Positions 4,413 through 29,982 of a stretch of DNA of 31,744 bases are shown here, piece after piece. Within the stretch, counting starts at the first letter, position 1. Each line of letters begins with the position of its first letter. Under the pieces are notes generated by a model. That model was not told where the DNA came from, ran no database searches, and saw only the letters and a list, made by a program, of their open reading frames with translations. Both the position numbers and the translations under genes were made by a program. This DNA is from a virus: IMG/VR virus record IMGVR_UViG_3300044703_000110, positions 1-31,744 of that record, one strand, 5' to 3'.

Positions 4413-4447
4413 ATCGTCGGGCCACGCGCGCCAGCGGATTCGGATTC
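4413..4447 (-). promoter_or_regulatory. GAATCC late promoter of the lysis unit
   Basis: On the minus strand GAATCC is present twice in tandem (4447-4442 and 4441-4436). Counting from the first copy, 23 nt separate it from GACGAT (4418-4413), and ATG follows 6 nt later. It directly follows the stop codon of the preceding gene. The second copy sits 17 nt from the hexamer, the usual sigma70 spacing, so this site may be stronger or differently regulated. Confidence 0.65.
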
Positions 4448-4448
4448 G

Positions 4449-4988
4449 TCACCCGAGGGAGAAGCCCAGGTTGTCCAGCGACACCCACGTGTTGCTGCCG
4501 ACCGTGCACCTCACGTCGCCCACGGACGTGACGCGGGCCTCGCCGAACAAGTCGTTCGACACAGTGGCCAGTATGTTCTCCCGCGCGGGCCTGAACGCTG
4601 CCGGGAGGTTGAAGATCGGCGTGTTGATCGTGCCGCTCTTGACGAGCCCCCGCAGGACGACCATGCCGCCGACACGCCTGTACCCGGCAGCGTTGAACGT
4701 GGTGACGTCGTAGTTCACCCACGCGTTGAGGAGCGTGGGGGCGACCCACCCGGCCCCCACCGGCCCCAGCACCAGCCAGTCCGGCCCGTCGCGCAGCGCC
4801 CACACCGTGTCGCCCACGACCGGCGCGTAGCTCGCGAGCGCGACATAGCCCGCCTGGGTGGGGCCGCCGCCGATGGACAGGCTGGCCGTGCCGTCGGCCG
4901 CCACCGCCTGCACCGTCGCCTGGCGCATCCGCTTGACCGCCGGCCGGGCGAGGAGCCGGCGCCGCGTGCGCCGGGCGGGGACCGCCAC
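4449..4988 (-). CDS. Small tail-tip / receptor-binding-like protein
   Basis: The 179 residues have a basic start (ARRTRRRLLARPAVKR), a small beta-barrel-like part (about 20-78: ATVQAVAADGTASLSIGG ... GPDWLVLGPVG) resembling the OB-like domain of tail hub or spike proteins, and a C-terminal beta-sandwich-like part (about 85-179: WVNYDVTTFNAAGYRRVGG, then LPAAFRPAREN). The C-terminal style is seen in tail-fibre and receptor-binding heads of siphophages. It is the last gene of the tail unit, just before the endolysin unit, a usual place for an adsorption protein. The stop of the upstream gene abuts the GTG start (TAG|GTG). Assignment rests on pattern and position. Confidence 0.6.
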   Translation of the reverse strand: MAVPARRTRRRLLARPAVKRMRQATVQAVAADGTASLSIGGGPTQAGYVALASYAPVVGDTVWALRDGPDWLVLGPVGAGWVAPTLLNAWVNYDVTTFNAAGYRRVGGMVVLRGLVKSGTINTPIFNLPAAFRPARENILATVSNDLFGEARVTSVGDVRCTVGSNTWVSLDNLGFSLG

Positions 4989-6164
4989 CTACGCCACCCG
5001 CCGCTCGCGCGCCGTGGCCCGCATCCCGTCCCTCGCCCGCAGCGGGATCGTGAGCGCGTCCAGGCTGTACTCGGCGTTGACCCTCGAGATCGCGCGCGTG
5101 ACGTGCACGACGTCCGACTCCTCGTGGCAGGGGTTCACGAGGCCGTTCCATGCCAGCACCTCGGGCACGCCCTTGAGGTTGCGGACCCGCCCGGCCGCCG
5201 CGGCCTGTCCCTGGGCCACCGTCGTGATGAACGGCGAGGCCTCGAAGTACGGGACGAGCCCGTACGGCCCGGGCGGGATGGGCGGCACCGCCTCGGGGTT
5301 GCCCGCGTACGTCGGGCTGCGGGGGTCCGAGTCCCAGGCGCTGCCCCGCACCGCGACCGTGTTCGTCGTGTTCTCGCCCGAGAGCACCACGTAGTTGTAA
5401 ACCCTCTCGTTGTCCATGTCCTTGGACAGGTCGGTGATGGTCATCTGCGGGCCCTCCACGTACGACGCCACGACGGGCGCCGCCGCCGGGTCGGGGACGG
5501 GCTGGATGACGCACACGCCGTCCGGGGCGAAGAACACCTCGTAGCCCATGCTGTCGGCGATCCCCTTGACCGAGTCCGTCCACGGGCTCGCCTGCTCGTC
5601 GAACACCAGGCGCGGCAGCGTGTGCGCGCTGGCCGTGACGCGGAACGCCGTGCCCGGACGGCGGTCGAGGATGATGGCCTGGAGCACGTCCGTGGCAAGC
5701 CCGCCGGCGGCCACGACGTAGGGCGACGCCCACCGGTTGCGGTCGACTGCGCGGCTGCGGTCGTACGCCGTGAGGGCGATGCCGACGCCCTTGGCCGAGT
5801 CCGCCACCTGCACGCGCCCGAGCCCGAACGTGCCCAGCGCCTTGTACTCGGGCGCCGCCACCCCCGGAAGCGCGAGCCCGCGCCAGAGGCGCACCTCGTT
5901 GCCGGACACGACGGAGAGCAGGTCGGTGGCGGCGGCCGGCACGATGGACCCGGTGGGGTCGACGAGGCGCAGGTCGCAGCGCCGCCGGTATGCCTGGGCG
6001 CGGTCGACGCTGACCGACCCGTCATCCACCAGCAGGGCGGGCGACGCCGTCGAGTCAGACGACGCGATGACCTTGCCGGTGGGGTCGAGCACCTCGACCT
6101 TGGACGCGACGACCTGGCTCCCGGACGCCAGGGCGGCCTGGAACGCGGCCGTGCAGCCCTGCAT
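4989..6164 (-). CDS. Minor tail protein, DUF5047-like baseplate hub
   Basis: This 391-residue protein resembles the DUF5047 family of actinophage minor tail proteins, which probably form part of the baseplate or tail hub. Typical features are a start reading FQAALASGSQVVASKVEVLD, the VDDGSVSVDRAQAYRRRCDLRL strand pattern (given here in part), GNEVRLWRGLALP, a middle part with GIADSMGYEVFFAPDG, and MDNERVYNYVVLSGEN. The order tape measure, large minor tail protein, this protein, small tip protein is standard for such phages. The start abuts the stop of the previous gene. The alternative annotation would simply be 'minor tail protein'. Confidence 0.75.
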   Translation of the reverse strand: MQGCTAAFQAALASGSQVVASKVEVLDPTGKVIASSDSTASPALLVDDGSVSVDRAQAYRRRCDLRLVDPTGSIVPAAATDLLSVVSGNEVRLWRGLALPGVAAPEYKALGTFGLGRVQVADSAKGVGIALTAYDRSRAVDRNRWASPYVVAAGGLATDVLQAIILDRRPGTAFRVTASAHTLPRLVFDEQASPWTDSVKGIADSMGYEVFFAPDGVCVIQPVPDPAAAPVVASYVEGPQMTITDLSKDMDNERVYNYVVLSGENTTNTVAVRGSAWDSDPRSPTYAGNPEAVPPIPPGPYGLVPYFEASPFITTVAQGQAAAAGRVRNLKGVPEVLAWNGLVNPCHEESDVVHVTRAISRVNAEYSLDALTIPLRARDGMRATARERRVA

Positions 6165-8255: not shown

Positions 8256-11200
8256 CTAAGCCCCCGCGGCCGTCAGCTCGGCCTCCAGGTCGGCGGCGAA
8301 CGCGGCCAGCGCCGGCTCCACGGCCCGGCGCACCGCGCCCTCGAACGCCCGCTCGTCCACGTTGGCGCTCGTGTGGACCGTGACGGTCAGCGGCGCGTGC
8401 ACGGTGACGGCCCCGCCGCCGCCCGGCCCCACCACCCGCTCGGGCGCGCCCGTCCCGTTCCACGCCATGGTCAGCCCCGGCGGCAGGTAGCCGCCCCGGT
8501 CGAACACCGCCGCGTGCACGTGGTCGGAGTGGCCGCCGATGGCGCCGCGCACGAGGCGCCCGTCCTTCACGTACTGGCCGAGGGGGTCGTAGAACATCTC
8601 GGCCAGCTGCGCCCGGGCGTCGAGCAGCGCCGTCGCGATCTGGCGCATGTCCGACGACACCATGTCGACGGCCTTGCCCCGGTAGTGGTACGAGTTCACG
8701 GCGTGGCGCCCGCCCGTCGTGGACGTGATGACGTACGGGACGTGGCGGCCGTCGAGGTAGGCGGTGATGGCCGGCCAGCGGTCGCCCCGGATCTGGCCCG
8801 GCGCGCCGGGGGCAGGCGATCGGCCCTGGCCCGCCAAGGCCCGCATGGCCGCGTACTCGATGTTCGCCGCCGTCTCCGCCGGGGCCCGCAGCGGCCAGCC
8901 CCATGCCGAGAGGTCGGGCGGCGGCGGGAGCACGCCGCCCTGCGCGTAGGCGGCAAGGCGCATGCCGAAGTGGCCCGCCACCTGGCCGAGGATCTCGGCC
9001 GAGCGGGCGCGCTTGGACGGCGCCAGCGGGATGTACGCCTCGCCCCCCGTCTCGGGCTCGGCCCACAGTCGCGCCGTGTGCGCGACCTGCGCCGTGTGCG
9101 GCGGGTCGAAGCCGCCCTCGGCCTTGACCTTTACGCCCCCTGGCATGTGGTACTCGCCTGTGGTCTGGTCAAAGTAGATCTTCTCGCCCGTGGTGGCTGC
9201 GAGGACGGCGTTCGCCGCGTTCATCAGATCGAGGGCGTACTCATCGGAAATCTGCTGGACCTCGCCCTGCCCGAGCTTGAGCTTCGTGGCAATGGCGTCG
9301 ACTGTGTGGCCTACCTCCAGCTCAGCGATGACTGTCGCCTGCTTAAGCCCGGCATCAAGGCTGTTCTGGTGGTCGAGGACTCCCCTGTCGGTCGCGGTTT
9401 TCATCGTCGAGGCCATGCGACCGAACTGCTCATCGGTGGCGTTCGCCATCTTCGTCACGATGTCCGCGTGGTCACGGCCCAGCTTCGCGAACTCGGATGC
9501 AACCTCGAAGCCGCCCCGCCGAGCAATGGTGACGAGGTTCGCCTCCCACGCATTCTCCTCGTCTACCTGCTTCTGCAGCGCGGCCTGGTATTCGTCCAGG
9601 CTCAGCTTCACGTGATCGGTGCTCGCCGCCACCGAGTCGTTGGACTGGCTGGCCCGGTCCTGCACCTCGATCACCTGCTCGTGCGCCTGCTTGACCCCGA
9701 GCACCGCCTCGGCCAGCGCCTGCTCGGCCGCCGCGAGGTCGCGGGCGTGGCCGCCGTCGCGCATCTCGTTCACCGCCGCCTGCTTGGCCGCCGCCGCGTC
9801 GTCGGCCGCCGCCACGTCGCGCTTGGCCGCCGCGATGTCGAGCTCGGCGTCCCTGACATCGCGGGCGCTTCCCCCCGATCGCAGGTCGGCCAGCGCCCTC
9901 TCGGCGTCGGCCTGGTGGAGCGCTGCCTCCTCGGCCCTGACCCTGGCGTCGCGCACGTCCAGCTCGGCCGCGGCCACGGCGTCATCCGACCCGCCCGCCG
10001 CCCGGGTGTCGGCCAGCTTGGCCTCGGCCGCCGCCTGGTCGGCCGTCGCCCGGGTGGCGGCGATCGTGGCCGACTCGACGTCGAGCTCGCCCTGGCGGAC
10101 GGTCTTGGCCGACGGGTGGCGCAGGTCGGCCAGCCTCTGCTCGGCGTCGAGCTCGCGCTCGCGCGCGCGCGTCGTGTCGTCGACGGCCGTCGCCAGGTCG
10201 CGCTCGGCCTGGCGCAGCGCCGCATAGCCCTTGTCCGACTGGGCCTGGGCCAGCTTGCGGCTCGCGTCCTCCAGCCGGCCCTGCGCCTGGGCGACGCCGA
10301 GGACGGCCGACTGATAGTCGAGCGCGTTGCGGGCCGCGTCGTGCATGTGCTGGGCGGTCGACTTGGTGGACTGCGCGCTCTTTTTCTGGGCCTCGTCAGC
10401 CTGCGATTGAAGGTCTGCGAACACCTGCATCGGGTCGATGAAGTGCCCTACAGCATCGAATAGCGCCTGCTCGGCAGCGGTTAAGCCCTGAGCCGAGCCG
10501 GTGGTCTGATCGAACATGGCGGCAAGTTGCCGCTGTTGCTCGCTGAGCTGAGCCGACGTGGTCGCGACTTTCTTCCCAGCGGCGTCGTGCTCATTGGTCG
10601 CGGCCGTATTCTCGCGGACAGCCTTGGTGGCCGAAGAGTTGGCATCTGACAGGTCACCAACCGTCCTCACGATCTTCATCACGTCGCCAGCGTGCTCGCC
10701 CCGTAGGACCCCCGACGCCATCAGGTTGAGTAGGTCGTTGTACGCCGTGTTGCTCCCGTTCAAGGCGTCGTGCAACAGCCTCATGGCCTTCTCGTTGCCA
10801 TCCAGGCCCGTCACTTGCGCCGCAAGCGACTGAGCGAGGCGGTCTACCGCCGCCTGGTTGCCCTGGATGGCCCCCGTCGCGTCAACAGTCGACACCTTCA
10901 AGCGGATGAGGCGGTCAATCGCTCCCTTCTCGGCAAGGCTCTGGATCGCCCTGGTGTTGACAGAACCTTGGACGCCCTGCTGCTCCTGCATGATCGCGTC
11001 GACGAACCCCTGTGTCGCCTGTCGTGCCTTCTCCTTTTCGGCGGCGTAGTGAGTGAGCATGAGGCTGGCGATCAACAGGGCCGGCGTTAGGTAGCCGAGA
11101 GCACTCGTGGCGGCACCAATCCCTGACGCAACCCTTGGCGCGTCCTTGGCGAGGTCCTCCATGAGCTTTCGAGCCGCCACGATCCGGGGAGCGAGCAGCA

Positions 11201-12428
11201 GGAACCCTCCGCCGAGGAGGGCAATGGCACCCCCAAGACCAACGACCACGGTCACGATGGTGCGAGCTGGGCCCGATAGCCCGGCGAACCCGTCGGCCAG
11301 GGACTTCACGGAGCCAGCAGCCGAACGAAGAACGGGCAGCAGCATGTTCCCGGTCTGGATGGCAAGGGCCATGACGTTGTTCTTGGTGATCTCGATCTGG
11401 AAGCCAAGACCCTTGCTCTGGATATCGAATGCTCTCTGGGCTGCGCCAGCCGCCTGCACCGGATCCTTGATGGCGGCCATTTGTTCCGCAAACAGGCGCC
11501 CACTCTGTGCCGTGAGCGCTAACGCGCCCCGAGCGCTGCGCATCTCCGGGAACATCTTGACGACCATCTCAAGGCTTCCGCCCGTCGCCGTGCGGAGCAT
11601 GTCCATCACGCCCGAGAGCCCCTTGGCTTGAAGTGCCGCGACCCCGGACTCATAGCCCTGCTGCCGTAGCACGAGGGCCAGCGCGTCGCTCGGACGCATC
11701 AGCGATTGGACCACGCGAGTCAGGGAGGTGCCGGACTCGGCGGCCGACAGTCCCGAGAGCGTCATGGTGGCTATGGCGGCGGAGGCGTCCTCGATCGGGA
11801 TGTGTGCCGCCGCTGTAGCGCCCACGAAGTCGCCGACCGTGTTGGCGAGCTCCTCGAACGTCAGCACGCCCTTGTTGACCGTCTGGAACAGGACGTCACT
11901 GACATGGGACGCCTGGCCGGCCGACATGCCGTACGCGTTGAGGACGGCGGTGATGGCGCGCGACGCGGTCGCGGTGTCCGACAGCCCGGCCGACGCGGCG
12001 ACGGCCGAGGCCCGCAGCACCTCCATGCCGGCCGAGCCCTGGAAGCCCGACGACGCGATGTCGTACAGGCCGCGCGCCAGCGTCGACGCGCTCTGCGGCA
12101 TCTGCCTCGACATGTCGACCACGGCCGCGCCCGTCGAGCGGAACTGCGCCTCGCTCATCTGCGAGATGGTGTTGACGTTGCGCATCTGGCGCTCGAAGTC
12201 GATGGACGCCTTGGCCGAGAGGGCGAAGGCGGCGACGACGCCCACGCCGATGGCGGTCGACACCCGGCCCGCCGTGGCCATCACCTGTCGGGTCTGGGCG
12301 TCGGTGCGCCCCGCCACCTCCGTGACCTGAGCGCCGAACAGCCGCACCTCGGCCGCGGCCGACGCCATCTCGGCCCGGAACTGGCCGACGCGCGCGGTGA
12401 GGGCGACCTCGATCGTCTTGAACGTCAT
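8256..12428 (-). CDS. Tail tape measure protein with M15-like peptidase domain
   Basis: This 1390-residue protein sets tail length and is delivered with the DNA. The N-terminus (MTFKTIEVALTARVGQFRAE) and residues about 45-330, including SIDFERQMRNVNTIS, match TP901-type tape measures. Hydrophobic segments occur near 58-75 and 390-415. Residues about 720-930 form a long helical array with repeating AAxAELDxxDAR-type units of some 35-40 residues. Near the end, SYHYRGKAVD (about 1240-1250) and SDHVHAAVF (about 1298-1306) match the HxxxxxxD and HxH zinc motifs of LAS/M15 peptidases, so the protein may also cut the cell wall during DNA entry. The start overlaps the chaperone stop (ATGA). Segments at about 9130-9620 and 10400-11760 are less GC-rich, suggesting mosaicism. 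Confidence 0.92.
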   Translation of the reverse strand: MTFKTIEVALTARVGQFRAEMASAAAEVRLFGAQVTEVAGRTDAQTRQVMATAGRVSTAIGVGVVAAFALSAKASIDFERQMRNVNTISQMSEAQFRSTGAAVVDMSRQMPQSASTLARGLYDIASSGFQGSAGMEVLRASAVAASAGLSDTATASRAITAVLNAYGMSAGQASHVSDVLFQTVNKGVLTFEELANTVGDFVGATAAAHIPIEDASAAIATMTLSGLSAAESGTSLTRVVQSLMRPSDALALVLRQQGYESGVAALQAKGLSGVMDMLRTATGGSLEMVVKMFPEMRSARGALALTAQSGRLFAEQMAAIKDPVQAAGAAQRAFDIQSKGLGFQIEITKNNVMALAIQTGNMLLPVLRSAAGSVKSLADGFAGLSGPARTIVTVVVGLGGAIALLGGGFLLLAPRIVAARKLMEDLAKDAPRVASGIGAATSALGYLTPALLIASLMLTHYAAEKEKARQATQGFVDAIMQEQQGVQGSVNTRAIQSLAEKGAIDRLIRLKVSTVDATGAIQGNQAAVDRLAQSLAAQVTGLDGNEKAMRLLHDALNGSNTAYNDLLNLMASGVLRGEHAGDVMKIVRTVGDLSDANSSATKAVRENTAATNEHDAAGKKVATTSAQLSEQQRQLAAMFDQTTGSAQGLTAAEQALFDAVGHFIDPMQVFADLQSQADEAQKKSAQSTKSTAQHMHDAARNALDYQSAVLGVAQAQGRLEDASRKLAQAQSDKGYAALRQAERDLATAVDDTTRARERELDAEQRLADLRHPSAKTVRQGELDVESATIAATRATADQAAAEAKLADTRAAGGSDDAVAAAELDVRDARVRAEEAALHQADAERALADLRSGGSARDVRDAELDIAAAKRDVAAADDAAAAKQAAVNEMRDGGHARDLAAAEQALAEAVLGVKQAHEQVIEVQDRASQSNDSVAASTDHVKLSLDEYQAALQKQVDEENAWEANLVTIARRGGFEVASEFAKLGRDHADIVTKMANATDEQFGRMASTMKTATDRGVLDHQNSLDAGLKQATVIAELEVGHTVDAIATKLKLGQGEVQQISDEYALDLMNAANAVLAATTGEKIYFDQTTGEYHMPGGVKVKAEGGFDPPHTAQVAHTARLWAEPETGGEAYIPLAPSKRARSAEILGQVAGHFGMRLAAYAQGGVLPPPPDLSAWGWPLRAPAETAANIEYAAMRALAGQGRSPAPGAPGQIRGDRWPAITAYLDGRHVPYVITSTTGGRHAVNSYHYRGKAVDMVSSDMRQIATALLDARAQLAEMFYDPLGQYVKDGRLVRGAIGGHSDHVHAAVFDRGGYLPPGLTMAWNGTGAPERVVGPGGGGAVTVHAPLTVTVHTSANVDERAFEGAVRRAVEPALAAFAADLEAELTAAGA

Positions 12429-14433: not shown

Positions 14434-14468
14434 ACGGTCGCAGCCGCGCCGCCGCCCGTTTCGGATTC
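14434..14468 (-). promoter_or_regulatory. GAATCC late promoter of the tail unit
   Basis: GAATCC (14468-14463), 23 nt, GACCGT (14439-14434), 8 nt and ATG follow on the minus strand. The box is immediately downstream of the previous stop. The stretch from the -10-like box to the start, xACCGTGGCCGGCGATG, is the same as at the scaffold promoter (24090-24124), pointing to common descent or common selection. Confidence 0.7.
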
Positions 14469-15309: not shown

Positions 15310-15344
15310 ACGGTACGGCCCCAGCGAGCGCGGCCCCCGGATTC
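15310..15344 (-). promoter_or_regulatory. GAATCC late promoter of the neck unit
   Basis: GAATCC (15344-15339), 23 nt, TACCGT (15315-15310), 6 nt and GTG follow on the minus strand. It lies between the forward cargo gene and the neck genes, so it restarts minus-strand transcription after the terminator at 15929-15970. Confidence 0.7.
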
Positions 15345-17155: not shown

Positions 17156-17190
17156 AACGTACGGGCGCGCCCGCGGCGCCAGTCGGATTC
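17156..17190 (-). promoter_or_regulatory. GAATCC late promoter of the adaptor unit
   Basis: GAATCC (17190-17185), 23 nt, TACGTT (17161-17156), 6 nt and ATG (17149) follow on the minus strand, directly after the stop of the MuF-like gene. The unit it heads runs to 15979. Confidence 0.68.
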
Positions 17191-21077: not shown

Positions 21078-21089
21078 GGCCGCTCGGCG

Positions 21090-21437: not shown

Positions 21438-22498
21438 ACCGTCGCCACGAACAGGGCGTTGGGGTCGAGCAGCACGGGCAGGGCCACGGCCTCGGCCGTC
21501 GTGATGATGGCGGCCGGGCGGATCGACGACTCCACGAAGGCGATGATGCCCGGGGCGTCGGTGAACGTGATGGTGCCGTTGCCCGCCATGGTCGCGGCGT
21601 TGGCCGTCAGCCCGTAGAGGGTGGCGCCCATGCCGCCGCGCATGGCGATGACCTTGCGGTTTCCGATGACGCGGGCCATGCCCGTCTCGGCCAGCGTCTG
21701 GCGCTCCACGTCGTTGGTCGTGACCAGCGGGGCGTTGACGCCCGCGGCCCGAAGCACCTGTCGGACCGTCTCGTCCGTCACGATGCCGGGGACGACGCCC
21801 GTGACGGGCGCCAGGTTGCGGACCTGCGCGCTCTGGGCGAGGTCGGCCATGATCTCGGACGACACGCCCCAGCCGTCGGGGTTGCGCCCGCCGTTGTGCG
21901 GGCGGTAGACGGCCTCCCACGCCTTGAGGTCCGTGATGGGCGTGGCGTTGGCGTGGTCCGACCAGGCGGCGCCCGCGGGCACGACGTTGAGGTGGCTGGC
22001 GGGGACGTTGAAGTTGGCCTGCACGGCGCTGCCGGCCTCCACGTCGCCCAGCTCCGTGAGCGTCACCATGCCCGTCTGGAGCACGTCGCCGTGGGCGAGG
22101 GTGAGGCGGTTCTGGACGGCGTTCGCCATGTTCTCCGCGTCGCGGAAGATCACGTCCACCACCTGCTGGTCGGTGGCCGCGGCCACGCCGGCCCGGAGCC
22201 GCTGCAGGCGCAGGATGTCCTTCTCGTTCAGGCGGATGGACCGGCCGAGCGGCGGTATCTCGCCGCCGATGATGGAGAAGCCGGGCCGCTTGGCCAGCGG
22301 TGGCGCGGTGTCCCACGTGCGGTACCGGGCCACCTGCCCGGCGCCCGAGACATCGATCTGGCTCAGCTCGTACTCGATGTCCTCGACCGGGCGCGGCGGG
22401 AACATGCCGGCGAACGGGAGCTGCCCGTCCACCAGCTCGCGGATGAACCCGATCAGCCGGGGGATGTCGATGACGTCGGTGATGAACTCGGTCGCCAT
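21434..22498 (-). CDS. Major capsid protein, lambda gpE-like
   Basis: The 354 residues match the lambda gpE (Phage_cap_E) family in length and pattern: MATEFITDVIDIPRLIGFIR at the start, IGGEIPPLGRSIRLNEKDIL, a helix with RDAENMANAVQNRLTLAHGD, a domain with PITDLKAWEAVYRPHNGGR, a MSSE-like GVSSEIMADLAQSA and a C-terminal IRPAAIITTAEAVALPVLLD. It has the HK97 fold by family knowledge and forms the capsid shell. A strong Shine-Dalgarno sequence, TAGGAGGGG, merges with the stop of the decoration gene, fitting very high expression. Confidence 0.93.
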   Translation of the reverse strand: MATEFITDVIDIPRLIGFIRELVDGQLPFAGMFPPRPVEDIEYELSQIDVSGAGQVARYRTWDTAPPLAKRPGFSIIGGEIPPLGRSIRLNEKDILRLQRLRAGVAAATDQQVVDVIFRDAENMANAVQNRLTLAHGDVLQTGMVTLTELGDVEAGSAVQANFNVPASHLNVVPAGAAWSDHANATPITDLKAWEAVYRPHNGGRNPDGWGVSSEIMADLAQSAQVRNLAPVTGVVPGIVTDETVRQVLRAAGVNAPLVTTNDVERQTLAETGMARVIGNRKVIAMRGGMGATLYGLTANAATMAGNGTITFTDAPGIIAFVESSIRPAAIITTAEAVALPVLLDPNALFVATV

Positions 22499-22511
22499 GG
22501 GGCGTCCCCTC

Positions 22512-23246
22512 CTAGACGGTGTGGGTCACGTACGCGATGTGCGAGCAGTCGGCGCGCCCGTTGGCGTCGATCTGGTGGGCGGGGGCCGGCGGCAGGTGGT
22601 TGGTGACGACCTCGCCCGACCAGAACAGGGCAGCGCCCAGGTCGCCCGTCGAGTCGCGGTCGTACGGGATGGAGGCGAAGAGGTGGCCGACGCACACCTG
22701 GCGGCCGTCGCTCGTGGTGTCGGCGCCGCCCGGCGTCGCCGTGGCCACGGCGGCCGTGCCCGCCCCGCCGGTGAGCGAGGAGGCGTCGGTGGTGACAGCG
22801 GGGACGTCGGTGTTCGCGTACTGGCCGCCGAACGTGAGCGTGTACGGCGCGGTGCCGCCGGGCCCGCCGGTGACCACGATGTCGCCCGCGTTGACGTTGG
22901 GCAGGGCGACGAGGGCGGCCTGCACGGCCGACGCCGCGGCGTTCCACGCGATGGCGGCCGTGGCCTGGCCCGAGAGCGTGATGGTGAACGTCCCGCCGGT
23001 GGCGCTCACCGTGATGGTCTGCACCTCCTCGGTCGAGCCCGTGTACGGCCCGTACAGGCCCGTCGCCGCCACGCGGCCGAGCGGGATGCCCGAGGGGATG
23101 AACCCGTTGGGGTACGCGGTGGCGAGGTCGAGCAGGCTCCGGTCGAGCACGATCGGGCGCGGCCTGCCGATGGGCTCGCCGCCGTTGCCGATCCAGCGCT
23201 GGTCCTCGTTGAGGAGGGTCTTCTTTGTCCGGGTCGAGATGTCCAT
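22512..23246 (-). CDS. Head decoration protein with inserted Ig-like domain
   Basis: This 244-residue protein lies between scaffold and capsid genes, the place of the decoration (lambda D-like) protein that stabilises the expanded head. The start MDISTRTKKTLLNEDQRWIG and the parts PNGFIPSGIPLGRVAATGLY (about 46-65) and VGHLFASIPYDRDSTGDLG (187-205) through ALFWSGEVVTNHLP are the family core. Between them, about residues 73-175 form an extra beta-sandwich with VQTITVSATGGTFTITLSGQ and LTFGGQYANTDVPAVTTDAS, a module I know as a free-standing repeat in actinobacterial and phage surface proteins. It probably projects from the head. The Shine-Dalgarno sequence AAGGAG overlaps the scaffold stop. 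Confidence 0.82.
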   Translation of the reverse strand: MDISTRTKKTLLNEDQRWIGNGGEPIGRPRPIVLDRSLLDLATAYPNGFIPSGIPLGRVAATGLYGPYTGSTEEVQTITVSATGGTFTITLSGQATAAIAWNAAASAVQAALVALPNVNAGDIVVTGGPGGTAPYTLTFGGQYANTDVPAVTTDASSLTGGAGTAAVATATPGGADTTSDGRQVCVGHLFASIPYDRDSTGDLGAALFWSGEVVTNHLPPAPAHQIDANGRADCSHIAYVTHTV

Positions 23247-23256
23247 GGAGGGCTCC

Positions 23257-24081
23257 TTAGGAGGCCGTGGCGCGCTGGAACGGGGCGAACGGGTTCTTGG
23301 CCGGGTCGTTGGCGGACTCGGCCATGCGCAGCCGGGCCTGCTCGCGCCCGGCCTCGAGGCCGGACTTCGTGCCCTGGGCGGCCGGCTGGCCCGACGGGTT
23401 GCTCGACGGCGCCGTGCCCGGGACGCCGAACAGGGCGGGGAACTTGGCCTTGACGGCCTCGACGGCGGCCGTGATGCCGGCCTCGTCGGCCTCGCCGTCG
23501 ACCGCCACGAGCGCCACCAGGTCGGCGACGTGCTCCCTCGGCGCGCCCGCGTCGCGCAGCGCGTCCTTGACGGCGGACGTGCGCGCGGCCGTGGCCGCCG
23601 CCGCCTCGCGCTCGGCCGCCCTGCGCTCGCGCTCCTCGGCGTCGCGCTCGCGCCTCTCCATCTCCGTGAGGCTGGCGGCCTCCTCGTCGCGCTTGGCCTT
23701 GACCCACGCCTGCGCGTCCTCGACCCTGTCGAAGCCCAGCGCGCCGAGCAGCGCCTGGCTGGCCTCCGTCGTCCCCGACGCCTTCGCCTGGTCGAGCGCC
23801 GCCTGGAGCGCCCCCAGGTCGGGCACCCCGGCCGCGGCGCCACCGCCCTGGCTGGCCGCCCCGGTGCCGGTGCCGGTGGCGGCGCCGCCGCCCTGCCCAC
23901 CGGTGCCGCCCGTGGCCGTGCCGCCCCCGCCATCGCCTGGCCCGCCGGTGGTGGCGCCGCCCGGGCCGTCGCCACCGGACACGACGGGCAGCAGCGTGCC
24001 GTCCGACCAGAGGTGGTGCGGGCGGCCGCGGTGGGCCACGACGCCGAGATGGGACGGGGTGGGCTGGGGTGCGCTGCGCAT
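23257..24081 (-). CDS. Capsid scaffolding protein
   Basis: The 274-residue protein has an N-terminal part ending WSDGTLLPVVSGGDGPGG, a Gly/Thr/Ala-rich disordered linker (about 40-90), a highly charged coiled coil (about 120-165, RDEEAASLTEMERRERDAEE) and a C-terminal part with NDPAKNPFAPFQRATA. A disordered linker, a coiled coil and a short C-terminal capsid-binding tail are the marks of scaffolding proteins that guide shell assembly. The ATG at 24081 is 8 nt after the CACCGT of a GAATCC promoter, so its mRNA may be leaderless. It heads the head-shell unit, which includes decoration, capsid and fibre genes. Confidence 0.85.
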   Translation of the reverse strand: MRSAPQPTPSHLGVVAHRGRPHHLWSDGTLLPVVSGGDGPGGATTGGPGDGGGGTATGGTGGQGGGAATGTGTGAASQGGGAAAGVPDLGALQAALDQAKASGTTEASQALLGALGFDRVEDAQAWVKAKRDEEAASLTEMERRERDAEERERRAAEREAAAATAARTSAVKDALRDAGAPREHVADLVALVAVDGEADEAGITAAVEAVKAKFPALFGVPGTAPSSNPSGQPAAQGTKSGLEAGREQARLRMAESANDPAKNPFAPFQRATAS

Positions 24082-24089
24082 CGCCGGCC

Positions 24090-24124
24090 ACGGTGGCAGC
24101 GAGGACTCGCCTGCTTTCGGATTC
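24090..24124 (-). promoter_or_regulatory. GAATCC late promoter of the scaffold-capsid unit
   Basis: GAATCC (24124-24119), 23 nt, CACCGT (24095-24090), 8 nt and ATG follow on the minus strand. The box follows the 52-residue gene's stop by 5 bases. Downstream the sequence CCGTGGCCGGCGATG repeats that of the tail-unit promoter. Confidence 0.72.
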
Positions 24125-24129
24125 GCCCG

Positions 24130-24288
24130 TCAGCCCTCGTCGCCGTCGACCCACTCATGCCCGCTGCTGGCGTACTCCTCGGCGTAGAGCAGGTCAGGGT
24201 CCTCGCCCGCGCTCGCCCGTCGCAGCAGGTCGAGCAGGCGCTCGCCCTCGATGGCCCACCAGCCCAGGGGCGTGACGCGCTCAGCCAC
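24130..24288 (-). CDS. Small conserved actinophage protein, 52 residues
   Basis: The protein reads VAERVTPLGWWAIEGERLLD at the start, then LLRRASAGEDPDLLYAEEYA and ends SSGHEWVDGDEG. I recall the pattern WWxIxGExLLxMLRRAxAGEDPDxLYAExYANS from many actinobacteriophages, where this tiny gene lies next to portal, protease or scaffold genes. The GTG at 24288 overlaps the last bases of the Ntn-hydrolase gene by 8. It is below usual gene-finding limits but has a full-length match to that pattern. The function is unknown. Its acidic, Trp-rich sequence suggests a binding partner, perhaps of the portal or protease. Confidence 0.75.
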   Translation of the reverse strand: MAERVTPLGWWAIEGERLLDLLRRASAGEDPDLLYAEEYASSGHEWVDGDEG

Positions 24289-24841
24289 CGGACGTCGAGA
24301 GCACGGGCCCCGGCGGGCCGACGAACGCCATCACCTCGTGCGCCGCGTGCAGCGCGAGACGCACTCGTTCTTCGGGCGTGGCACCGAAGCATGCCGAGGT
24401 CGCGAGCGAGCCCCGTGCGACCTGCGTGCCCGCTCCGATGGCGTAGTACGGCTCAGCGACCTCGAACGCGGCCATACCCTCGTCGATGCTCCATAGGCGC
24501 CCCTGCCAGCCGACCAGGAACTCGCCATCGACCAGGTCGTTCTCGATCACGCTCCTGGGCACCGGGACATTCGTGAGCACGGCGTGCAGCGAGCGGGCGC
24601 ACCCGTCGACGAAGGCCAGCGCGTCCGTGCCGTCGGCATAGGGCGGGGGCTGCCAGTGGAGGTGGACGGCTTGGCCGATGGCGGCGCTGCCAGCGTGGCC
24701 GACCAGCATCACGTTGTTGCCCACAGCCCTACGAACGACCTTGGGCGTTCGGTGCCGGAACAGCATCTCGTCAGACTGTGACGCCATGTCGTAGCCAAGC
24801 CAGCAGTGGCCGCGCTCGGCCACTGCCGCTATGCACGTCAC
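24281..24841 (-). CDS. Proteasome-beta/HslV-like Ntn-hydrolase, likely prohead protease
   Basis: The 186-residue protein starts MTCIAAVAERGHCWLGYDMA. Counting the Thr after the initiator Met as residue 1, Thr1, Asp17 and Lys33 (in TPKVVRR) occupy the positions of the catalytic Thr, Asp and Lys of HslV and proteasome beta subunits; Gly15 and Ser20 also fit. Later VMLVGHAGSAAIGQAV, FLVGWQGRLWSIDEGM and YYAIGAGTQVARGSL match the beta-subunit core strands, the last two containing the typical G-x-G turn. It is encoded between portal and scaffold, where phages usually have the capsid maturation protease. No other protease is visible in the head module, so it may process the head. The GTG start abuts the portal stop. 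Confidence 0.78.
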   Translation of the reverse strand: MTCIAAVAERGHCWLGYDMASQSDEMLFRHRTPKVVRRAVGNNVMLVGHAGSAAIGQAVHLHWQPPPYADGTDALAFVDGCARSLHAVLTNVPVPRSVIENDLVDGEFLVGWQGRLWSIDEGMAAFEVAEPYYAIGAGTQVARGSLATSACFGATPEERVRLALHAAHEVMAFVGPPGPVLSTSGG

Positions 24842-26641
24842 CTACTGCCCCGCCGGTGGCGGCGCGGGCTGGCCGGGCGGCACCAGCGGGATGACGGGCG
24901 GCGGGGCGGGCGCGGCACGGAGCAGCGACGGGTCGATGCCCAGGTGAGCGGCCGCCGCCTGCGGCGAGCCCGTGGCGTCGGCCAGGTGCACGGCGTTGGC
25001 GAAGTCCTCGTGCTCCATGCGCTCCAGCTCCTCGGCCACGTCGACGTCGACGACGCCGCCGGCGACCAGCATCTCGACGCCCGTCCGGCGGCTGATGGCG
25101 GGCGGGCTGGCCGACAGCAGCGCCACCACCTCGTCGATGACCGCCCGCCGGTCGGTCGGCAGGAACGAGCCGAGCGTGACCTCGGCGCGGGGGTTGGCGC
25201 CAGGGGGCAGGTACCCGCCCGCCTGCGCCATGCGCTGGACGAACTTGAGCAGCAGCGGCAGCTTCTCGCCGCGCACGAGGCGCATCCTGCGCACCAGCCC
25301 CTGGAGGGCGGCGAACTTGAGGGAGCGGGCGAAGCCCGACTCGGCCAGGGCGTGGCCGTCCTGGACGCGCCCGAGGGCCTCGGCCGGCACCTGGGAGTTG
25401 ACGGCGAGCCGCTCCAGCAGGTGGTCCACGTATTTCAGGACCGCGTCCAGGCTCTGCGACGTGTCGACGACCGTGACTTTGCCCGACAGCACGGTGCCCG
25501 GCCCGTACGTCGGGATGGCGGGCACGTCGCCCCCGTCGCGTCGGCGGCCCGTGGTCGGCATGGCGCCCGCGTCCTCGATGGCCAGCGGCGGCGTGCCCGT
25601 CGTGGCGCTGGCCGCCGCCGCGTCGGTGTCCGCCGCGTGCAGCTCGTCGAGCAGCTGCACGACGAGCGCGAGCAGAGAGCGGCCGTAGTGCTGCTTGCGC
25701 GACGGCGTGTTCGGCTCGTGGACGACGGGGATGAAGTCGATCCCCAGGTCGAGGTCGCGCACCTCCAGCCCCTCGTCGTTGAGCGAGTACGCGCCGCGCT
25801 CGGGCGGGAAGTCGTGCACGGTGCGGCCCTGGAGGTCGCTCAGCGCCCACACGCCCTCGGTCATGTAGCACGTGACGGCGCTCGCGTCCTCGCCCGGCGC
25901 CTGCCACGGGTAGCGCCGGGTGGGCGCCGCCCCCGCGGGCGCGGCCTGGCCGGGCGGCGCGGCGATGGGGCGCAGCTCGTAGGTGATCCTGTGCACGAGG
26001 CGCTGGCCCGCCGCGTCGCCCTCGCCCTCGAGCTCCCATGCCAGGTCGACGCGCGGCGGGAACCCGTCCGTCACGTCCGACAGGCGCGGGAAGTAGAACC
26101 CGGGGTCGTAGATGTGGAGCGTGGGCCGCCGCTTGGCGTGCGACAGCCCGATGACGTACACGCCGTCGCCGAGGCTGACCGCGTCCTCCTCCGTCTCCAG
26201 CATGGCGAGCACCAGGCGCTCGTCGTCCGCCCAGTCGCGCAGCCACTGCTCGCGCTCGGCCGCGGCCGCGGCCGCCGCGTTCGCCGCCCGCTCGTCGGGC
26301 GTGGCGTCGGCGGGCAGCGCGGGGTCGAACTCGGCCGCGCCCTCGACGGAGATGGACTGGTCCTCGCCCAGCAGGGCGTCGACCACGCGCGCCACCAGCA
26401 GCCCGGCGTCGCCGTACTCGCGGCGCTTGTGCCGGTCGGCCTCGGAGTCCACGTCCAGGAAGTGCCGGGCGATGTTGTCGTGGTAGGCGGCGAGCAGGAT
26501 GTACGCGTTGAGCCGGCGGGCGTGGTCGCCCACCCACGTCGGGGCCAGCCCCGCCCTGCCCTCGGACGAGCGCTCGGCCACCGCCGTCTTGTGCGACAGC
26601 GGGGTCCATGCGTCGAACACGAGGTCCCAGGGGCGCGCCAC
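24842..26641 (-). CDS. Portal protein
   Basis: This 599-residue protein forms the dodecameric portal ring through which DNA is packaged. Supporting features are its place next to the terminase, its length, an N-terminal helical part (RRLNAYILLAAYHDNIARHF, then RREYGDAGLLVARVVDALLG), a middle part with HEPNTPSRKQHYGRSLLALV, a helix region DAVLKYVDHLLERLAVNSQV, then LKFAALQGLVRRMRLVRGEK, and a C-terminal tail rich in Pro, Ala and Gly. The GTG at 26641 was chosen because it lies exactly 6 nt after TACCGT of a GAATCC promoter. The tail of portal proteins often contacts terminase or scaffold. Confidence 0.85.
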   Translation of the reverse strand: MARPWDLVFDAWTPLSHKTAVAERSSEGRAGLAPTWVGDHARRLNAYILLAAYHDNIARHFLDVDSEADRHKRREYGDAGLLVARVVDALLGEDQSISVEGAAEFDPALPADATPDERAANAAAAAAAEREQWLRDWADDERLVLAMLETEEDAVSLGDGVYVIGLSHAKRRPTLHIYDPGFYFPRLSDVTDGFPPRVDLAWELEGEGDAAGQRLVHRITYELRPIAAPPGQAAPAGAAPTRRYPWQAPGEDASAVTCYMTEGVWALSDLQGRTVHDFPPERGAYSLNDEGLEVRDLDLGIDFIPVVHEPNTPSRKQHYGRSLLALVVQLLDELHAADTDAAAASATTGTPPLAIEDAGAMPTTGRRRDGGDVPAIPTYGPGTVLSGKVTVVDTSQSLDAVLKYVDHLLERLAVNSQVPAEALGRVQDGHALAESGFARSLKFAALQGLVRRMRLVRGEKLPLLLKFVQRMAQAGGYLPPGANPRAEVTLGSFLPTDRRAVIDEVVALLSASPPAISRRTGVEMLVAGGVVDVDVAEELERMEHEDFANAVHLADATGSPQAAAAHLGIDPSLLRAAPAPPPVIPLVPPGQPAPPPAGQ

Positions 26642-26647
26642 GGCCGG

Positions 26648-26682
26648 ACGGTACGGAGGCGCCGGGCCGGGCCGTCGGATTC
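26648..26682 (-). promoter_or_regulatory. GAATCC late promoter of the portal unit
   Basis: GAATCC (26682-26677), 23 nt, TACCGT (26653-26648), 6 nt and GTG follow on the minus strand. This is one of the two sites with the full TACCGT hexamer and gives the clearest example of the element. Confidence 0.75.
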
Positions 26683-26917
26683 AGCGGGACAGGCGGGGCT
26701 AAGGGTCGTGACCCGCCGATGCCATGCCACCGATGCCGTGACCAGTCTTGGGGGAAGGGCTGAGATGCAAAGCCGCCCCCGCCCCCGCCCCCGCCCCCAC
26801 CCATGCCCACACGCCCAGCCACCCGCCCCCTGGCTTACCGCCGCCTACTACGCCGCAGCCACGGCGGCGGCCGTGGTCTACGTGGTGGTGACCCTGCTGC
26901 GGCCATCGCCGGCGGCC
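26683..26917. other. Intergenic stretch between terminase and portal
   Basis: No convincing gene is seen in these 235 bases. A (CCGCCC)n-like tract covers about 26771-26800, and GGGTCGTGACCC (26705-26716) is a palindrome. On the plus strand an ATG at 26765 follows GGGGGAAGG and would give a short Arg/Pro-rich start and a hydrophobic run (AYYAAATAAAVVYVVVTLL), but this frame runs on antisense to the terminase and is doubtful. Confidence 0.4.
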
Positions 26918-28423
26918 CTACCGCCGCCCGCGCCAGCGCCCGTCGCCCATGCCCAGCTGCCCGTCGCCCTCGCCCTCGCCGTCCCAGAACGACTGGATCA
27001 CCGCGTCCGCCGTGTCGGTCGAGCGCCCGATGCGCTTGGCGATCTCGTCCTTGGCCTCGACGCGCAGGCGCCCGCCCGACTGCTCCCGGTAGCGCGGCGC
27101 CGTCAGGTCGCCCGTCAGCAGGTCGTCCGGCGGCAGCGCCACCTCCTCGCCGTTGGCCGGGTCCAGCAGCTCGCGCATCATCCACCACGCGGCCGAGCGG
27201 CAGTCGGCGAAGCGCCACTCGCCCGAGCGGTCGACCCTGTCGGTGCGCGCCCCGGCGATGAAGCCGAGCACCGGGTGGCCCATCTCCCGCAGGCGGTCGA
27301 CCACGCCCGCCCCCACCCCGTTGACGTCGACCACGGCCGGGCGGCCGCGCCCATGGCCGTTGAGCGCGGCGGCGACGCGCGCCGTCGTCTGCATCGTGTC
27401 CTGGCGGTGCTTGCGCCGCACCTCGGCGATGGCGCGGCCGTAGCGCAGGGCGATCACGGTGTCGGACGAGCCCGAGCGCCCGACGTCGACGCCGCAGCCC
27501 GAGAAGCGCCCGACGCGCCCGGCCCGGTCCCACGCCCGCCAGCGCTCGTTGGCCGCCTCCACCCAGGCGAGGGGGATGACGCCGGCCTCGTCCGATGCCG
27601 CGAACTCGCCGAGGACGCGGTTCTGGTAGATCGCCGAGTCCACGCCCCACTGGGCGGCGCGCTGGTCGGCCCACGCCCTGCTGACCTGGCCGGCCGCGAT
27701 CGCCTCGTCGAGCGTCACGTGGCGCGCCCACCAGTCCTCGTAGCCGGCCGCGCGCCTGTGGATCTGGTGGAACCGGCCCTGGGGCTCGCCCGGCGTCGAC
27801 ATGGCCAGCGCCAGCGCCTCGCCCGTGCCGCTGAACGCGCCCTCGGCCGCGTCCCACGTGCCGTCGACGATGGTCTTGGCCTCGTCGAACTCGTACAGCA
27901 CGTGGTCGGCGTGCACGCCCTCGATGTTGGCCGGCACGTTCGACGCCACCGCGAACGCCGAGCCGGTGCGCAGCTTGAGGTGCAGGTCCTGGAGCTCGCG
28001 GGCGGGGGTGAACGCGGCCCGCCCCACGACGTCCCAGCGCAGCAGGCGCGCCCACTTGTGGACCTCGGGCCACAGGTACTCCTCCAGCTGGCGCCACACT
28101 GACGCCGTGGTCGGGCACTTCCAGTCGAGGTGGTCGCCGTCGCGCGTCATGGCGAACCACAGCAGCGCGAACGCCTCCGTGGTCGTCTTGCCCGTGCCGT
28201 GCGGGCCGCGTGCCGACACCTTCTTGCGGGCGGGCAGCTCGGCCAGCACCTCTTGCTGGTACGGCGCCAGCCGCTGGCCCGTCGGCCAGTCGAAGCAGTC
28301 ATGGGCGAAGGCCACGGGGTCGTCGCGGTAGCGGCGCAAGCGCGTCGGCCGGAAGCGCTGGGCCGCGTAGTGCAGTGGGCCAGGGCGCCGGGGCGGGCCG
28401 GGCGACGGCACGGGCAGCGCCAT
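26918..28423 (-). CDS. terL: Terminase large subunit
   Basis: The 501-residue packaging motor has both domains. The ATPase shows Walker A GPHGTGKTT (about 73-81) and Walker B VLYEFDEA (about 175-182), with the catalytic Glu next to Asp. The nuclease shows the acidic residues expected of the RNase H-like fold: Asp313 in GVDVGRSGSSD, Asp366 in AVVDVNGVGAG and Asp473 in RSTDTADAVIQSFW. It cuts the concatemer and drives DNA into the head using ATP. The ATG lies 3 bases after the stop of the preceding gene (TAG-CCC-ATG), so translation is probably coupled. The C-terminus is Gly-rich. Confidence 0.95.
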   Translation of the reverse strand: MALPVPSPGPPRRPGPLHYAAQRFRPTRLRRYRDDPVAFAHDCFDWPTGQRLAPYQQEVLAELPARKKVSARGPHGTGKTTTEAFALLWFAMTRDGDHLDWKCPTTASVWRQLEEYLWPEVHKWARLLRWDVVGRAAFTPARELQDLHLKLRTGSAFAVASNVPANIEGVHADHVLYEFDEAKTIVDGTWDAAEGAFSGTGEALALAMSTPGEPQGRFHQIHRRAAGYEDWWARHVTLDEAIAAGQVSRAWADQRAAQWGVDSAIYQNRVLGEFAASDEAGVIPLAWVEAANERWRAWDRAGRVGRFSGCGVDVGRSGSSDTVIALRYGRAIAEVRRKHRQDTMQTTARVAAALNGHGRGRPAVVDVNGVGAGVVDRLREMGHPVLGFIAGARTDRVDRSGEWRFADCRSAAWWMMRELLDPANGEEVALPPDDLLTGDLTAPRYREQSGGRLRVEAKDEIAKRIGRSTDTADAVIQSFWDGEGEGDGQLGMGDGRWRGRR

Positions 28424-28426
28424 GGG

Positions 28427-28723
28427 CTACCCGCGGCCGGGCGGCGGCTGGACCTCCAGCATGTGCGGCGGCAGCCCACCCCACGTCGAGAGCCAGATGA
28501 CCCCGCCGCCGGCCAGGTGGGCGACGTCGGCCTCGCTGGGCCGCCACGCCACGCGCACGCACGGCACGCCGAGGTCGGCCGGGCCGCGGGGCTGGGTCAC
28601 GACGCCGACAGCAGGCTCGATGCCGGCCTCGCGCTCGCCCGGCGCCGTGAACGTGGCCACCGTGGAGTCGTACCCCGCCCACCAGTCGAGGTGACCGGGC
28701 TCGAGGTCGTTGACGATGTCCAC
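28427..28723 (-). CDS. Small protein before the large terminase
   Basis: The 98 residues read VDIVNDLEPGHLDWWAGYDS at the start, then LGVPCVRVAWRPSEADVAHL, AGGGVIWLSTWGGLPPHML and a proline tail. The VPCVRxAWRPxxxDxxxLAxGGxxWLxxxGGxPPHxL pattern recurs in actinophages just ahead of terminase genes and, less often, in the capsid region. The function is unknown. The GTG at 28723 lies exactly 6 nt after the GATGCT box of a GAATCC promoter and has no Shine-Dalgarno sequence, so this is the leaderless first gene of the terminase unit. It is followed at once by terL, and may supply ribosomes to it. Confidence 0.72.
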   Translation of the reverse strand: MDIVNDLEPGHLDWWAGYDSTVATFTAPGEREAGIEPAVGVVTQPRGPADLGVPCVRVAWRPSEADVAHLAGGGVIWLSTWGGLPPHMLEVQPPPGRG

Positions 28724-28729
28724 CGCGCC

Positions 28730-28764
28730 AGCATCGGGGCCAGCACAGGCGGCGCCGCGGATTC
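28730..28764 (-). promoter_or_regulatory. GAATCC late promoter of the terminase unit
   Basis: GAATCC (28764-28759), 23 nt, GATGCT (28735-28730), 6 nt and GTG follow on the minus strand. The -10-like hexamer is weaker, but the spacing and the A and T at positions 2 and 6 are kept. It starts 3 bases after the preceding stop codon. Confidence 0.65.
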
Positions 28765-28767
28765 GGC

Positions 28768-29022
28768 CTACGGGCCCCAGCGGCCGCGGCGCATCCGCCC
28801 CACGCGCGCGTCCCACTCGGCCGCGGCCGCGTCCATCGCCTGGCGCAGGTCGTCCATCGGGTGCCAGCGCTCGCCCACGCGGCCCCTCGACGCCGCTGTC
28901 GAGCCGCGCCAGACCGGCCCCATCACCGCCCGGTCCGCCCACGGACACAGGGCCAGGCGCAGCGCGTCGTCGGGCACGCACGCGTCGGCCAGGCCGCGCC
29001 AGTACCAGCCGGCGAGCCTCAC
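28768..29022 (-). CDS. Small Trp/Arg-rich protein, unknown
   Basis: The 84 residues begin VRLAGWYWRGLADACVPDDA and contain LALCPWADRAVMGPVWRGST, then a C-terminal helix MDDLRQAMDAAAAEWDARV and a basic end. The motif DLRQAM is shared with the neighbouring gene at 29019-29210, hinting at partial duplication. The GTG overlaps the previous stop (GTGA). It is part of the small-terminase unit. I do not recognise it; a role in DNA packaging is possible from position and basic character only. Confidence 0.6.
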   Translation of the reverse strand: MRLAGWYWRGLADACVPDDALRLALCPWADRAVMGPVWRGSTAASRGRVGERWHPMDDLRQAMDAAAAEWDARVGRMRRGRWGP

Positions 29023-29210
29023 GCCGCGCCGCCGCGACGCCGGAGTCGGGCGTGAGGCCGGTCATGCACCACACGGCGCGTCCGCTCCGCCGCCCACTCG
29101 GAGGCGATGGCCTCGAGATCGCCGCGCACCTGCTCCACGCGCACATCCAAGGTGGCCTGGCGCAGGTCGGCCATCGCCTGGCGCAGGTCGTGCCAGCGGG
29201 CGCGCCTCAC
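29019..29210 (-). CDS. Small coiled-coil protein, unknown
   Basis: The 63-residue protein is one long charged helix: WHDLRQAMADLRQATLDVRV, then EQVRGDLEAIASEWAAERTR, and a basic end. DLRQA occurs twice in tandem. Both its start and stop lie in GTGA overlaps with neighbours, which supports it as a true coding gene in spite of its size. It may pair with the small-terminase protein before it or the DLRQAM protein after it. No known family. Confidence 0.6.
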   Translation of the reverse strand: MRRARWHDLRQAMADLRQATLDVRVEQVRGDLEAIASEWAAERTRRVVHDRPHARLRRRGGAA

Positions 29211-29959
29211 GCCGCGCCGCCGCCCAGCAGCTCCAGCCGGCGGGCCACGACCTCGCCCACGGCCGGGCTCATGGGGTCGACGCCGAGGTCGCGCAGCACG
29301 GCCTCCAGCGCGTCGGCCACCAGCCCGCCCACCCGGTCGTCCCGGCGGTCCTGGCGCTCGGCCACGCCCATGTCGGCCGCCATCTTCGCGAAGCGGGCCA
29401 CGTCGCGCTGGACCTCGCGCCACATCGACCACAGCACGTGGGGGCGGGCGTCGCCCAGGTGGTCGGGGCCGTGGATGCCGGCCGTGGCCCGGCCGTCGGC
29501 CGCGATGGCGCCGCCGGCCTCCAGGCGGCCCACGAGGGTGTGCAGCACGTCCTCGTGCAGCTCGGCGCGGTGCAGCATGCGCCGGATGGCCTCGTGCTCG
29601 TCCACGTCGGCGATGTCGAGCCCCACCCTGGCCAGCTCGGCCGCCAGCGTCACCATCGCGGCCTCCCGCGCCACGCGGCGGGCGGCGGCGGCGACCACCT
29701 GGCGTGACGAGCCGCCGTGCATGCGGCAGACCGTCGAGCCGGTGCGGGGCATGCCGCCGCAGGGCACGGGGCGGCCGTCGGCGTCTCGGCGCTTGCGGTG
29801 CGCCGAGCAGGACGGGCCGGTGTGGCCATGGCCGAGCGAGCGGGTGTGGGGGCGGCCGCACTCGGGGCAGTCGGGCCAGGGGCCACGCGTCGCCTCAGCG
29901 AGCATGCCGGCCATGCCTCGGGTCCGCCGCTCGCGTCGTCGTCGCCCATCGCCCGCCAT
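29207..29959 (-). CDS. terS: Terminase small subunit candidate
   Basis: The protein (about 250 residues) has an N-terminal zinc-like part with CPECGRPHT and SCSAHRKRRDADGRPVPCGG, then the GSTVCRMHGGSSRQV block. The C...C...C-R-M-H-G-G signature, followed by an Arg-rich helix, is common in proteins encoded just before terL in actinophages and is usually taken as the DNA-recognising small terminase. The rest is helical (DVDEHEAIRRMLHRAELHED, then WSMWREVQRDVARFAKMAA). The start is uncertain: ATG 29959 is used, but ATG 29914 or 29905 would fit a transcript begun near 29940 from the GAATCC promoter. It heads the packaging genes; function is by position and motif. Confidence 0.7.
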   Translation of the reverse strand: MAGDGRRRRERRTRGMAGMLAEATRGPWPDCPECGRPHTRSLGHGHTGPSCSAHRKRRDADGRPVPCGGMPRTGSTVCRMHGGSSRQVVAAAARRVAREAAMVTLAAELARVGLDIADVDEHEAIRRMLHRAELHEDVLHTLVGRLEAGGAIAADGRATAGIHGPDHLGDARPHVLWSMWREVQRDVARFAKMAADMGVAERQDRRDDRVGGLVADALEAVLRDLGVDPMSPAVGEVVARRLELLGGGAA

Positions 29960-29982
29960 CGTCGCGCCAGCCGTTCGGATTC
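29948..29982 (-). promoter_or_regulatory. GAATCC promoter-like site of the small-terminase unit
   Basis: GAATCC (29982-29977), 23 nt and GGCGAT (29953-29948) follow on the minus strand. It is the weakest copy: position 2 is G instead of A and no start codon lies 6-8 nt downstream. It overlaps the chosen start at 29959, so if active it favours the start at 29914. Confidence 0.45.

Follow-up and report, generated by a model that had tools for sequence, protein, structure and literature searches.

Repeated promoters specific to a phage are an established kind of regulatory element, and the lytic (early) promoters of phage phiC31, which depend on a phage factor, and the middle promoters of phage T4 are the closest described kinds to the element reported here, which seems to match neither of them. 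The element consists of a box beginning with GAATCC and, exactly 23 nt further on, a hexamer resembling a -10 box, and it occurs eight times in a DNA stretch from an uncultured virus (IMG/VR record IMGVR_UViG_3300044703_000110; linear, 31,744 bp, 74% GC). The entire record, probably an incomplete piece of a genome, was analysed and is referred to as the window. The arrangement of the elements is real and unusual. We consider it probable that the eight copies constitute a phage-specific, bipartite class of late promoters with a factor-bound box, a SigA-type -10, no -35 and leaderless transcripts. It differs from the described kinds in the sequence of the box, the rigid 23-nt spacer, the upstream-shifted position of the box and the predicted leaderless starts.

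Comparison with described systems

The likeness to the phiC31 lytic promoters lies in a short asymmetric sequence that a high-GC actinophage carries, always in the same orientation, before many of its transcription units. As a positive control, a scan of the type used for the window was applied to phiC31 (NC_001978) and recovers the repeated lytic element GGGTTGCCGACTYCCTTAC, mostly 40-69 nt upstream of starts. However, GGGTTGCCGACTYCCTTAC is compact, is followed by a leader and a Shine-Dalgarno sequence before the gene and serves mainly early genes, whereas in the window the box and the -10 are 23 nt apart, the gene begins at the expected +1, the units served are those for head, tail and lysis, and the sequence is a different one. 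In T4 middle promoters an activator box replaces the -35 while a host-type -10 is kept (sigma appropriation by MotA/AsiA; PMC6755090), as would be the case in the window, but the MotA box is centred near -30, as opposed to near -37.5 for the window box if +1 is the start codon, and T4 middle promoters need a near-consensus -10 and serve genes of replication and nucleotide metabolism.

Repeated motifs in small intergenic gaps are also found in Microbacterium phages of clusters EC, EI and EG (Quhwah, MementoMori and Hyperion), where the motifs of EC and EG keep a set distance to the start codon that follows and the EC and EI genomes encode a sigma factor (PMC7302621). They differ from the present element in being contiguous motifs of 18-30 bp with unknown function, located 21-30 bp (EC, upstream of the ribosome binding site) or 14-22 bp (EG) before the start, and in the Quhwah genome the same scan finds no rigidly spaced -10. 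In mycobacteria and in the cluster O phages PL1, PR2 and PL2, leaderless SigA promoters have a -10 directly upstream of an ATG or GTG (RTG) and no Shine-Dalgarno sequence (PMC4633059, PMC4351075), a geometry to which the hexamer and RTG of the elements correspond, but they are SigA-like without any extra motif, whereas the elements of the window add an invariant upstream box and lack the -35. The start-associated sequences and their extended form (SAS/ESAS) of cluster K also recur, for the most part in a single orientation, and are linked to start codons (PMC3203893); SAS is, however, a 13-bp motif at the Shine-Dalgarno position that partly matches 16S rRNA, while the window box is 41-43 nt from the start and has no AGGAGG-like match. 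An extracytoplasmic function (ECF)-type promoter (GGAA-type -35, -10 at 16-18 nt) would not describe the eight sites, which show no conserved column at that spacing.

The preliminary description of this DNA, drawn from the letters alone, was aware of no described promoter class of such form. As far as checked, this is true of the exact form, but repeated start-associated or operon-heading elements as such are known in actinophages, i.e. in phiC31 and in clusters K, EC, EF, EG and EI, the motifs of these five clusters having been described without a known function (PMC3203893, PMC7302621).

Architecture of the eight elements

The 31.7 kb contain nine copies of GAATCC, every one of them on the minus strand and within the eight elements, which head eight units (phrog_3678 region, terminase, portal/peptidase, scaffold-decoration-capsid, a small unit starting at 17123, connector, tail, endolysin):

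Element 1, 29948..29982 (-): GAATCC-N23-GGCGAT; no RTG at 6-8 nt, nearest ATG 29914; unit of the gene at 29914 (phrog_3678 protein, possibly the small-terminase region), then small genes
Element 2, 28730..28764 (-): GAATCC-N23-GATGCT; GTG 28723 at 6 nt; unit of a 98-aa gene, then terminase large subunit (26918-28423)
Element 3, 26648..26682 (-): GAATCC-N23-TACCGT; GTG 26641 at 6 nt; unit of the portal-position gene (24842-26641, syntenic with the relative L088) and an HslV-like peptidase gene (24281-24841)
Element 4, 24090..24124 (-): GAATCC-N23-CACCGT; ATG 24081 at 8 nt; unit of scaffold (23257-24081), decoration and major capsid (21434-22498) genes
Element 5, 17156..17190 (-): GAATCC-N23-TACGTT; ATG 17149 at 6 nt; small unit, gene start 17123
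Element 6, 15310..15344 (-): GAATCC-N23-TACCGT; GTG 15303 at 6 nt; unit of the neck/tail-completion (connector) gene (14899-15303)
Element 7, 14434..14468 (-): GAATCC-N23-GACCGT; ATG 14425 at 8 nt; unit of a tail gene (14099-14425), tail tube (13362-13817), tape measure (8256-12734) and further tail genes
Element 8, 4413..4447 (-): GAATCC-N23-GACGAT, with N23 counted from the first box copy; ATG 4406 at 6 nt; unit of the endolysin gene (3477-4406) and the genes behind it

A second, tandem GAATCC lies inside element 8 (4436-4441). The eight coordinates, the hexamers and the exact N23 spacing of the preliminary description are all correct, and so are T at hexamer position 6 (8/8) and A at position 2 (7/8). 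The 6-nt box that it had defined is indeed present at every site, but the conserved box is longer, an asymmetric 8-bp GAATCCGA in which GAATCCG is invariant (G at position 7 in 8/8) and six of the eight sites have A at position 8. The next 22 positions vary freely; conservation returns with A (7/8) and C (7/8) and, after two variable positions, with T (8/8), so that the only conserved columns after the box lie at 31, 32 and 35 from its start. The hexamer is mostly NACCGT and conforms to NANNNT at seven sites, the exception being GGCGAT of element 1. Scored with their own position weight matrix, the eight sites reach 25.6-35.7 bits; the next best place in the window has 6.1. The box, its rigid spacing, the -10-like hexamer, the position of the RTG, the placement at unit heads and the lack of other promoter-like sites in the region are all seen directly.

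The start codons at the elements are ATG or GTG only; they follow the hexamer after 6 nt at five sites and after 8 nt at two, with none at element 1. The proposed start codon at 6-8 nt in seven of eight cases thus holds as geometry, but the ATG of element 5 (17149) opens merely a 10-codon open reading frame (ORF; MDAAAARAPW, 17123-17149), which overlaps the real start at 17123 as ATGGTGA. The leaderless starts predicted earlier would fit seven sites, one of them by way of a short leader ORF, but not element 1; no Shine-Dalgarno sequence is seen with this geometry. In mycobacteria, ATG and GTG are the only codons functional at +1, leaderless transcripts often begin with a short ORF that is coupled to the following gene, and a -10 and a Shine-Dalgarno sequence are mutually exclusive upstream of starts (PMC4633059); the coupled short ORF of element 5 corresponds to the mycobacterial pattern as well. 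For the gene of element 1 the most likely start is 29914, at a distance of 33 nt downstream; the flanking 29915-30228 (314 bp), in which the element lies, is non-coding as judged by GC content at third codon positions.

For genes inside the units, the earlier statement that Shine-Dalgarno sequences are frequent is weak: even a 4-nt match precedes only four of 19 internal starts, and in many cases the start codon touches or overlaps the stop codon before it. A -10-like hexamer at leaderless distance occurs at 2/17 internal gene starts, near the background of 6.6% of all RTGs.

It is the constancy of the spacing that bears on whether the element acts in DNA or in RNA. A translation or RNA-processing element working in the mRNA near the start codon, in the manner of the cluster K SAS, might be considered, as seven of the eight copies lie just before a start codon and SAS/ESAS elements are a known precedent (PMC3203893). 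However, the box-to-hexamer distance stays at 23 at elements 4 and 7, where the start codon moves from 6 to 8 nt, and the T column is kept at element 1, where the start codon is absent. Because the spacing is maintained despite the shift of the start codon, the hexamer belongs with the box, as in a promoter, and not with the start codon, as in a translation signal. With no Shine-Dalgarno complementarity, no RNA fold common to the eight sites and an unconserved box-hexamer interval, we regard an RNA-level function as very improbable. RNA folding found no common structure among the elements; it did show a GC-rich hairpin upstream of element 6, but nothing comparable at the remaining sites.

Statistical support

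By its count alone GAATCC is not conspicuous: nine copies are not significantly above the mean of about seven expected from dinucleotide shuffles (both strands), which is the one point in favour of chance or a compositional artefact. Position, strand, spacing and the A/T columns each exclude chance, and this explanation, refuted at the sequence level, has a practically negligible probability. All nine copies lie 25-70 nt upstream of gene starts; among all minus-strand hexamers with at least five copies, only GAATCC and its shifted version CGAATC are exclusively start-associated, with unrelated ones reaching 40% at most. An A/T column at 8/8 together with a second at 7/8 was obtained in none of 200,000 random sets of eight anchors.

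In an unbiased scan that considered every hexamer with every spacer for a following NANNNT plus RTG, the GAATCC pair of the window has p ~10^-17.5. The best values were 10^-4.1 to 10^-5.2 in 12 Markov shuffles, 10^-3.7 to 10^-4.6 in VWB, phiC31, Angelique and Quhwah, and ~10^-8 in about 100 other loci, leaving aside one tandem repeat. GAATCC is absent from 24.6 kb of minus-strand coding sequence, where codon-preserving shuffles expect 0.24 copies. Avoidance of GAATCC elsewhere in the genome was dropped as an idea, given that 19% of codon-preserving shuffles also have no copy on either strand.

Search for relatives

No DNA-level relative of the window was found among 50,697 phage records. The only syntenic relative retrieved is the locus L088, whose major capsid protein is 56% and portal-position protein 41% identical; it was also the sole result of the major capsid query and of the two-sequence capsid alignment. 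In the stretch compared, GAATCC is absent from the coding strand of L088, and Shine-Dalgarno-like sequences precede its decoration and capsid genes. With the terminase as query, 80 IMG/VR loci were retrieved, and repeated elements were absent from all of them; queries with the portal-position and tail proteins gave no relatives.

Two strict motif scans of 2.9 million IMG/VR viral contigs yielded 54 and 28 matches and no set of dispersed copies. The matches are scattered, isolated and nearly all in DNA of lower GC; they include a tandem repeat in two contigs (L118 and L134) and one match common to several related contigs of ~157 kb. In L118 (4-601), direct repeats ~180-187 bp apart fit the motif pattern by chance, in DNA of 32% GC unrelated to the window. 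One scan of genome contigs returned only a Chloroflexi metagenome-assembled genome. Motif scans may not list near-identical records, and close sister phages could thus exist. The look at relatives to which the preliminary description had pointed gave no sign of conservation, as the syntenic locus lacks the element and no contig with repeated, dispersed copies was found; as far as the data go, the element would be a property of one lineage.

A proposed mode of action

The placement of the elements at the heads of putative late units, their promoter character, the lack of a -35 and the leaderless geometry, all part of the preliminary description, are supported by the statistics and the anatomy described above. 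From the features of the elements we infer their promoter identity, the position of +1, the factor and the late timing. If the hexamer serves as the -10, +1 falls on the A/GTG itself or two bases before it, and with the start codon as +1, GAATCCGA occupies -41 to -34, abutting and entering the -35 position. No sigma-70 -35/-10 match was found in 12000-31744, which holds seven of the eight elements, and scans for canonical promoters and terminators found nothing at the junctions; a TTGACA-like -35 at 16-18 nt occurs once elsewhere in the window, away from the elements.

In the model that we favour, a phage-encoded or phage-recruited factor would bind GAATCCGA at about -41 to -34 and, as an activator or a sigma-remodelling protein, touch RNA polymerase, with the host primary sigma sitting on the actinobacterial-type -10 and no usable -35 element. 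Transcription would start at the ATG/GTG or no more than two bases from it, making the first cistron of each late unit a leaderless mRNA, while later cistrons would be translated by coupling or from their own Shine-Dalgarno sequences. An activator or sigma-remodelling protein is the simplest model, because the box lies further upstream than sigma-70 or ECF elements allow and is exactly spaced. Element 6 resumes the minus-strand units directly behind an opposite-strand gene (15345-15929, +), so a transcript from further upstream would have to cross this opposing unit to reach the element 6 unit. That gene, a member of phrog_19610 with unknown function, interrupts the late region in its middle part.

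The rigid spacer and the single asymmetric box would also fit one protein contacting both parts, i.e. a dedicated phage sigma factor or an alternative host sigma reading GAATCCGA and the -10 with no separate activator. In Microbacterium clusters EC and EI, phages with repeated intergenic elements do carry sigma genes (PMC7302621). In phiC31, gp12 is annotated as a sigma factor. However, the 35 bp from the box start to the last -10 base exceed the ~29 of sigma-70 and the ~25 of ECF sigmas, no conserved column exists at normal spacing, the hexamer resembles an ordinary SigA -10 and is present without the box at 478 (+), and no sigma gene was recognised in the window; we consider this explanation unlikely. 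A promoter for a single-subunit phage RNA polymerase was rejected, the middle of the element being unconserved.

The box-less site just mentioned is as follows:

478..494 (+): TACCGTGCCCGGCGATG, resembling the downstream half of the elements (ACCGTGGCCGGCGATG in elements 4 and 7); heads a 66-aa ORF at 492

It matches the lower half of elements 4 and 7 at 15/16 positions and has no GAATCC at the expected place upstream, which suggests that the lower half may serve a different class of genes in combination with some other signal upstream. At 866-930 (+), TTGACA, 19 nt, TATTAC, then GGGAGGTG and an ATG are arranged as in an ordinary promoter with a leader, unlike the late elements.

Two small DNA-binding candidates only were seen in the window, and nothing links either to the box:

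1549-1713 (-): 54 aa, ribbon-helix-helix (Arc/CopG-like), weakly similar to phage repressor family phrog_876 (E 1.7e-4)
653-835 (-): 60 aa, zinc-ribbon-like, containing two CxxC pairs; immediately past the lysis and small-gene region

The former protein, with its weak resemblance to a repressor family, gives some substance to another explanation, namely that the promoters are constitutive or weak SigA promoters consisting of a -10 only and a phage repressor binds at GAATCCGA; actinophages are known to have repeated sites of this sort (compare the stoperators of cluster A). Yet a lone -10 without a -35 in DNA of 74% GC would drive capsid and tail genes only weakly, a repressor site needs no single-base precision in its spacing to the -10, and individual operators are rare in late units, which leaves this explanation quite improbable.

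Several points nevertheless weigh against the factor-dependent promoter model. The element is known from one genome only and is missing from the syntenic L088; no gene for an activator or co-activator was recognised in the window, which does not include the early region; element 1 departs from the others at the A of the -10 and has no RTG at +1; and GAATCCGA could act as an operator instead.

Gene content of the window

The minus-strand genes stand in the following order in the direction of transcription:

DnaB-like helicase (cut at the right end), phrog_3678 gene, terminase large subunit, portal-position gene, peptidase
then scaffold, decoration, major capsid, minor capsid, connector, tail tube, tape measure, tail, endolysin

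The order of the head genes matches that of Streptomyces phage VWB and Gordonia phage Angelique. A long protein with matches to tail-fibre and minor-tail families (18703-20751, -) is unusually located between the capsid and connector genes. The C-terminal repeats of the endolysin (3477-4406, -) are of the GYWLLGRDGGVFSFGDAQFWGS type, presumably typical of surface proteins in Acidimicrobiia, and this hints at the class of the host. The left end of the window (1-352, +) is a bacterial RNase P class A RNA (Rfam RF00010, 200.7 bits), whose 5' end is cut by the contig end; no RNase P RNA scored above the cut-off in 25 related viral records, and an exact 24-mer of the window's RNA had no match in IMG/VR. 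It may represent the host-chromosome flank of a prophage or a phage-borne rnpB.

Biological meaning

It is possible, though we propose it only tentatively, that the phage has an initiation factor of its own for a box that lies upstream of where bacterial -35 elements ordinarily stand, and that a siphophage thereby expresses its whole virion and lysis gene set on leaderless mRNAs from eight dispersed late promoters, which would replace one long late operon. Control of late transcription is poorly known in phages of high-GC Gram-positive bacteria, and a rigid, easily searched element offers a concrete starting point: it defines eight transcription units and predicts exact 5' ends. The factor, if found, would provide a compact, orthogonal promoter system for high-GC bacteria. 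For the biology of the virus itself, the element suggests that all structural genes can be run on leaderless mRNAs.

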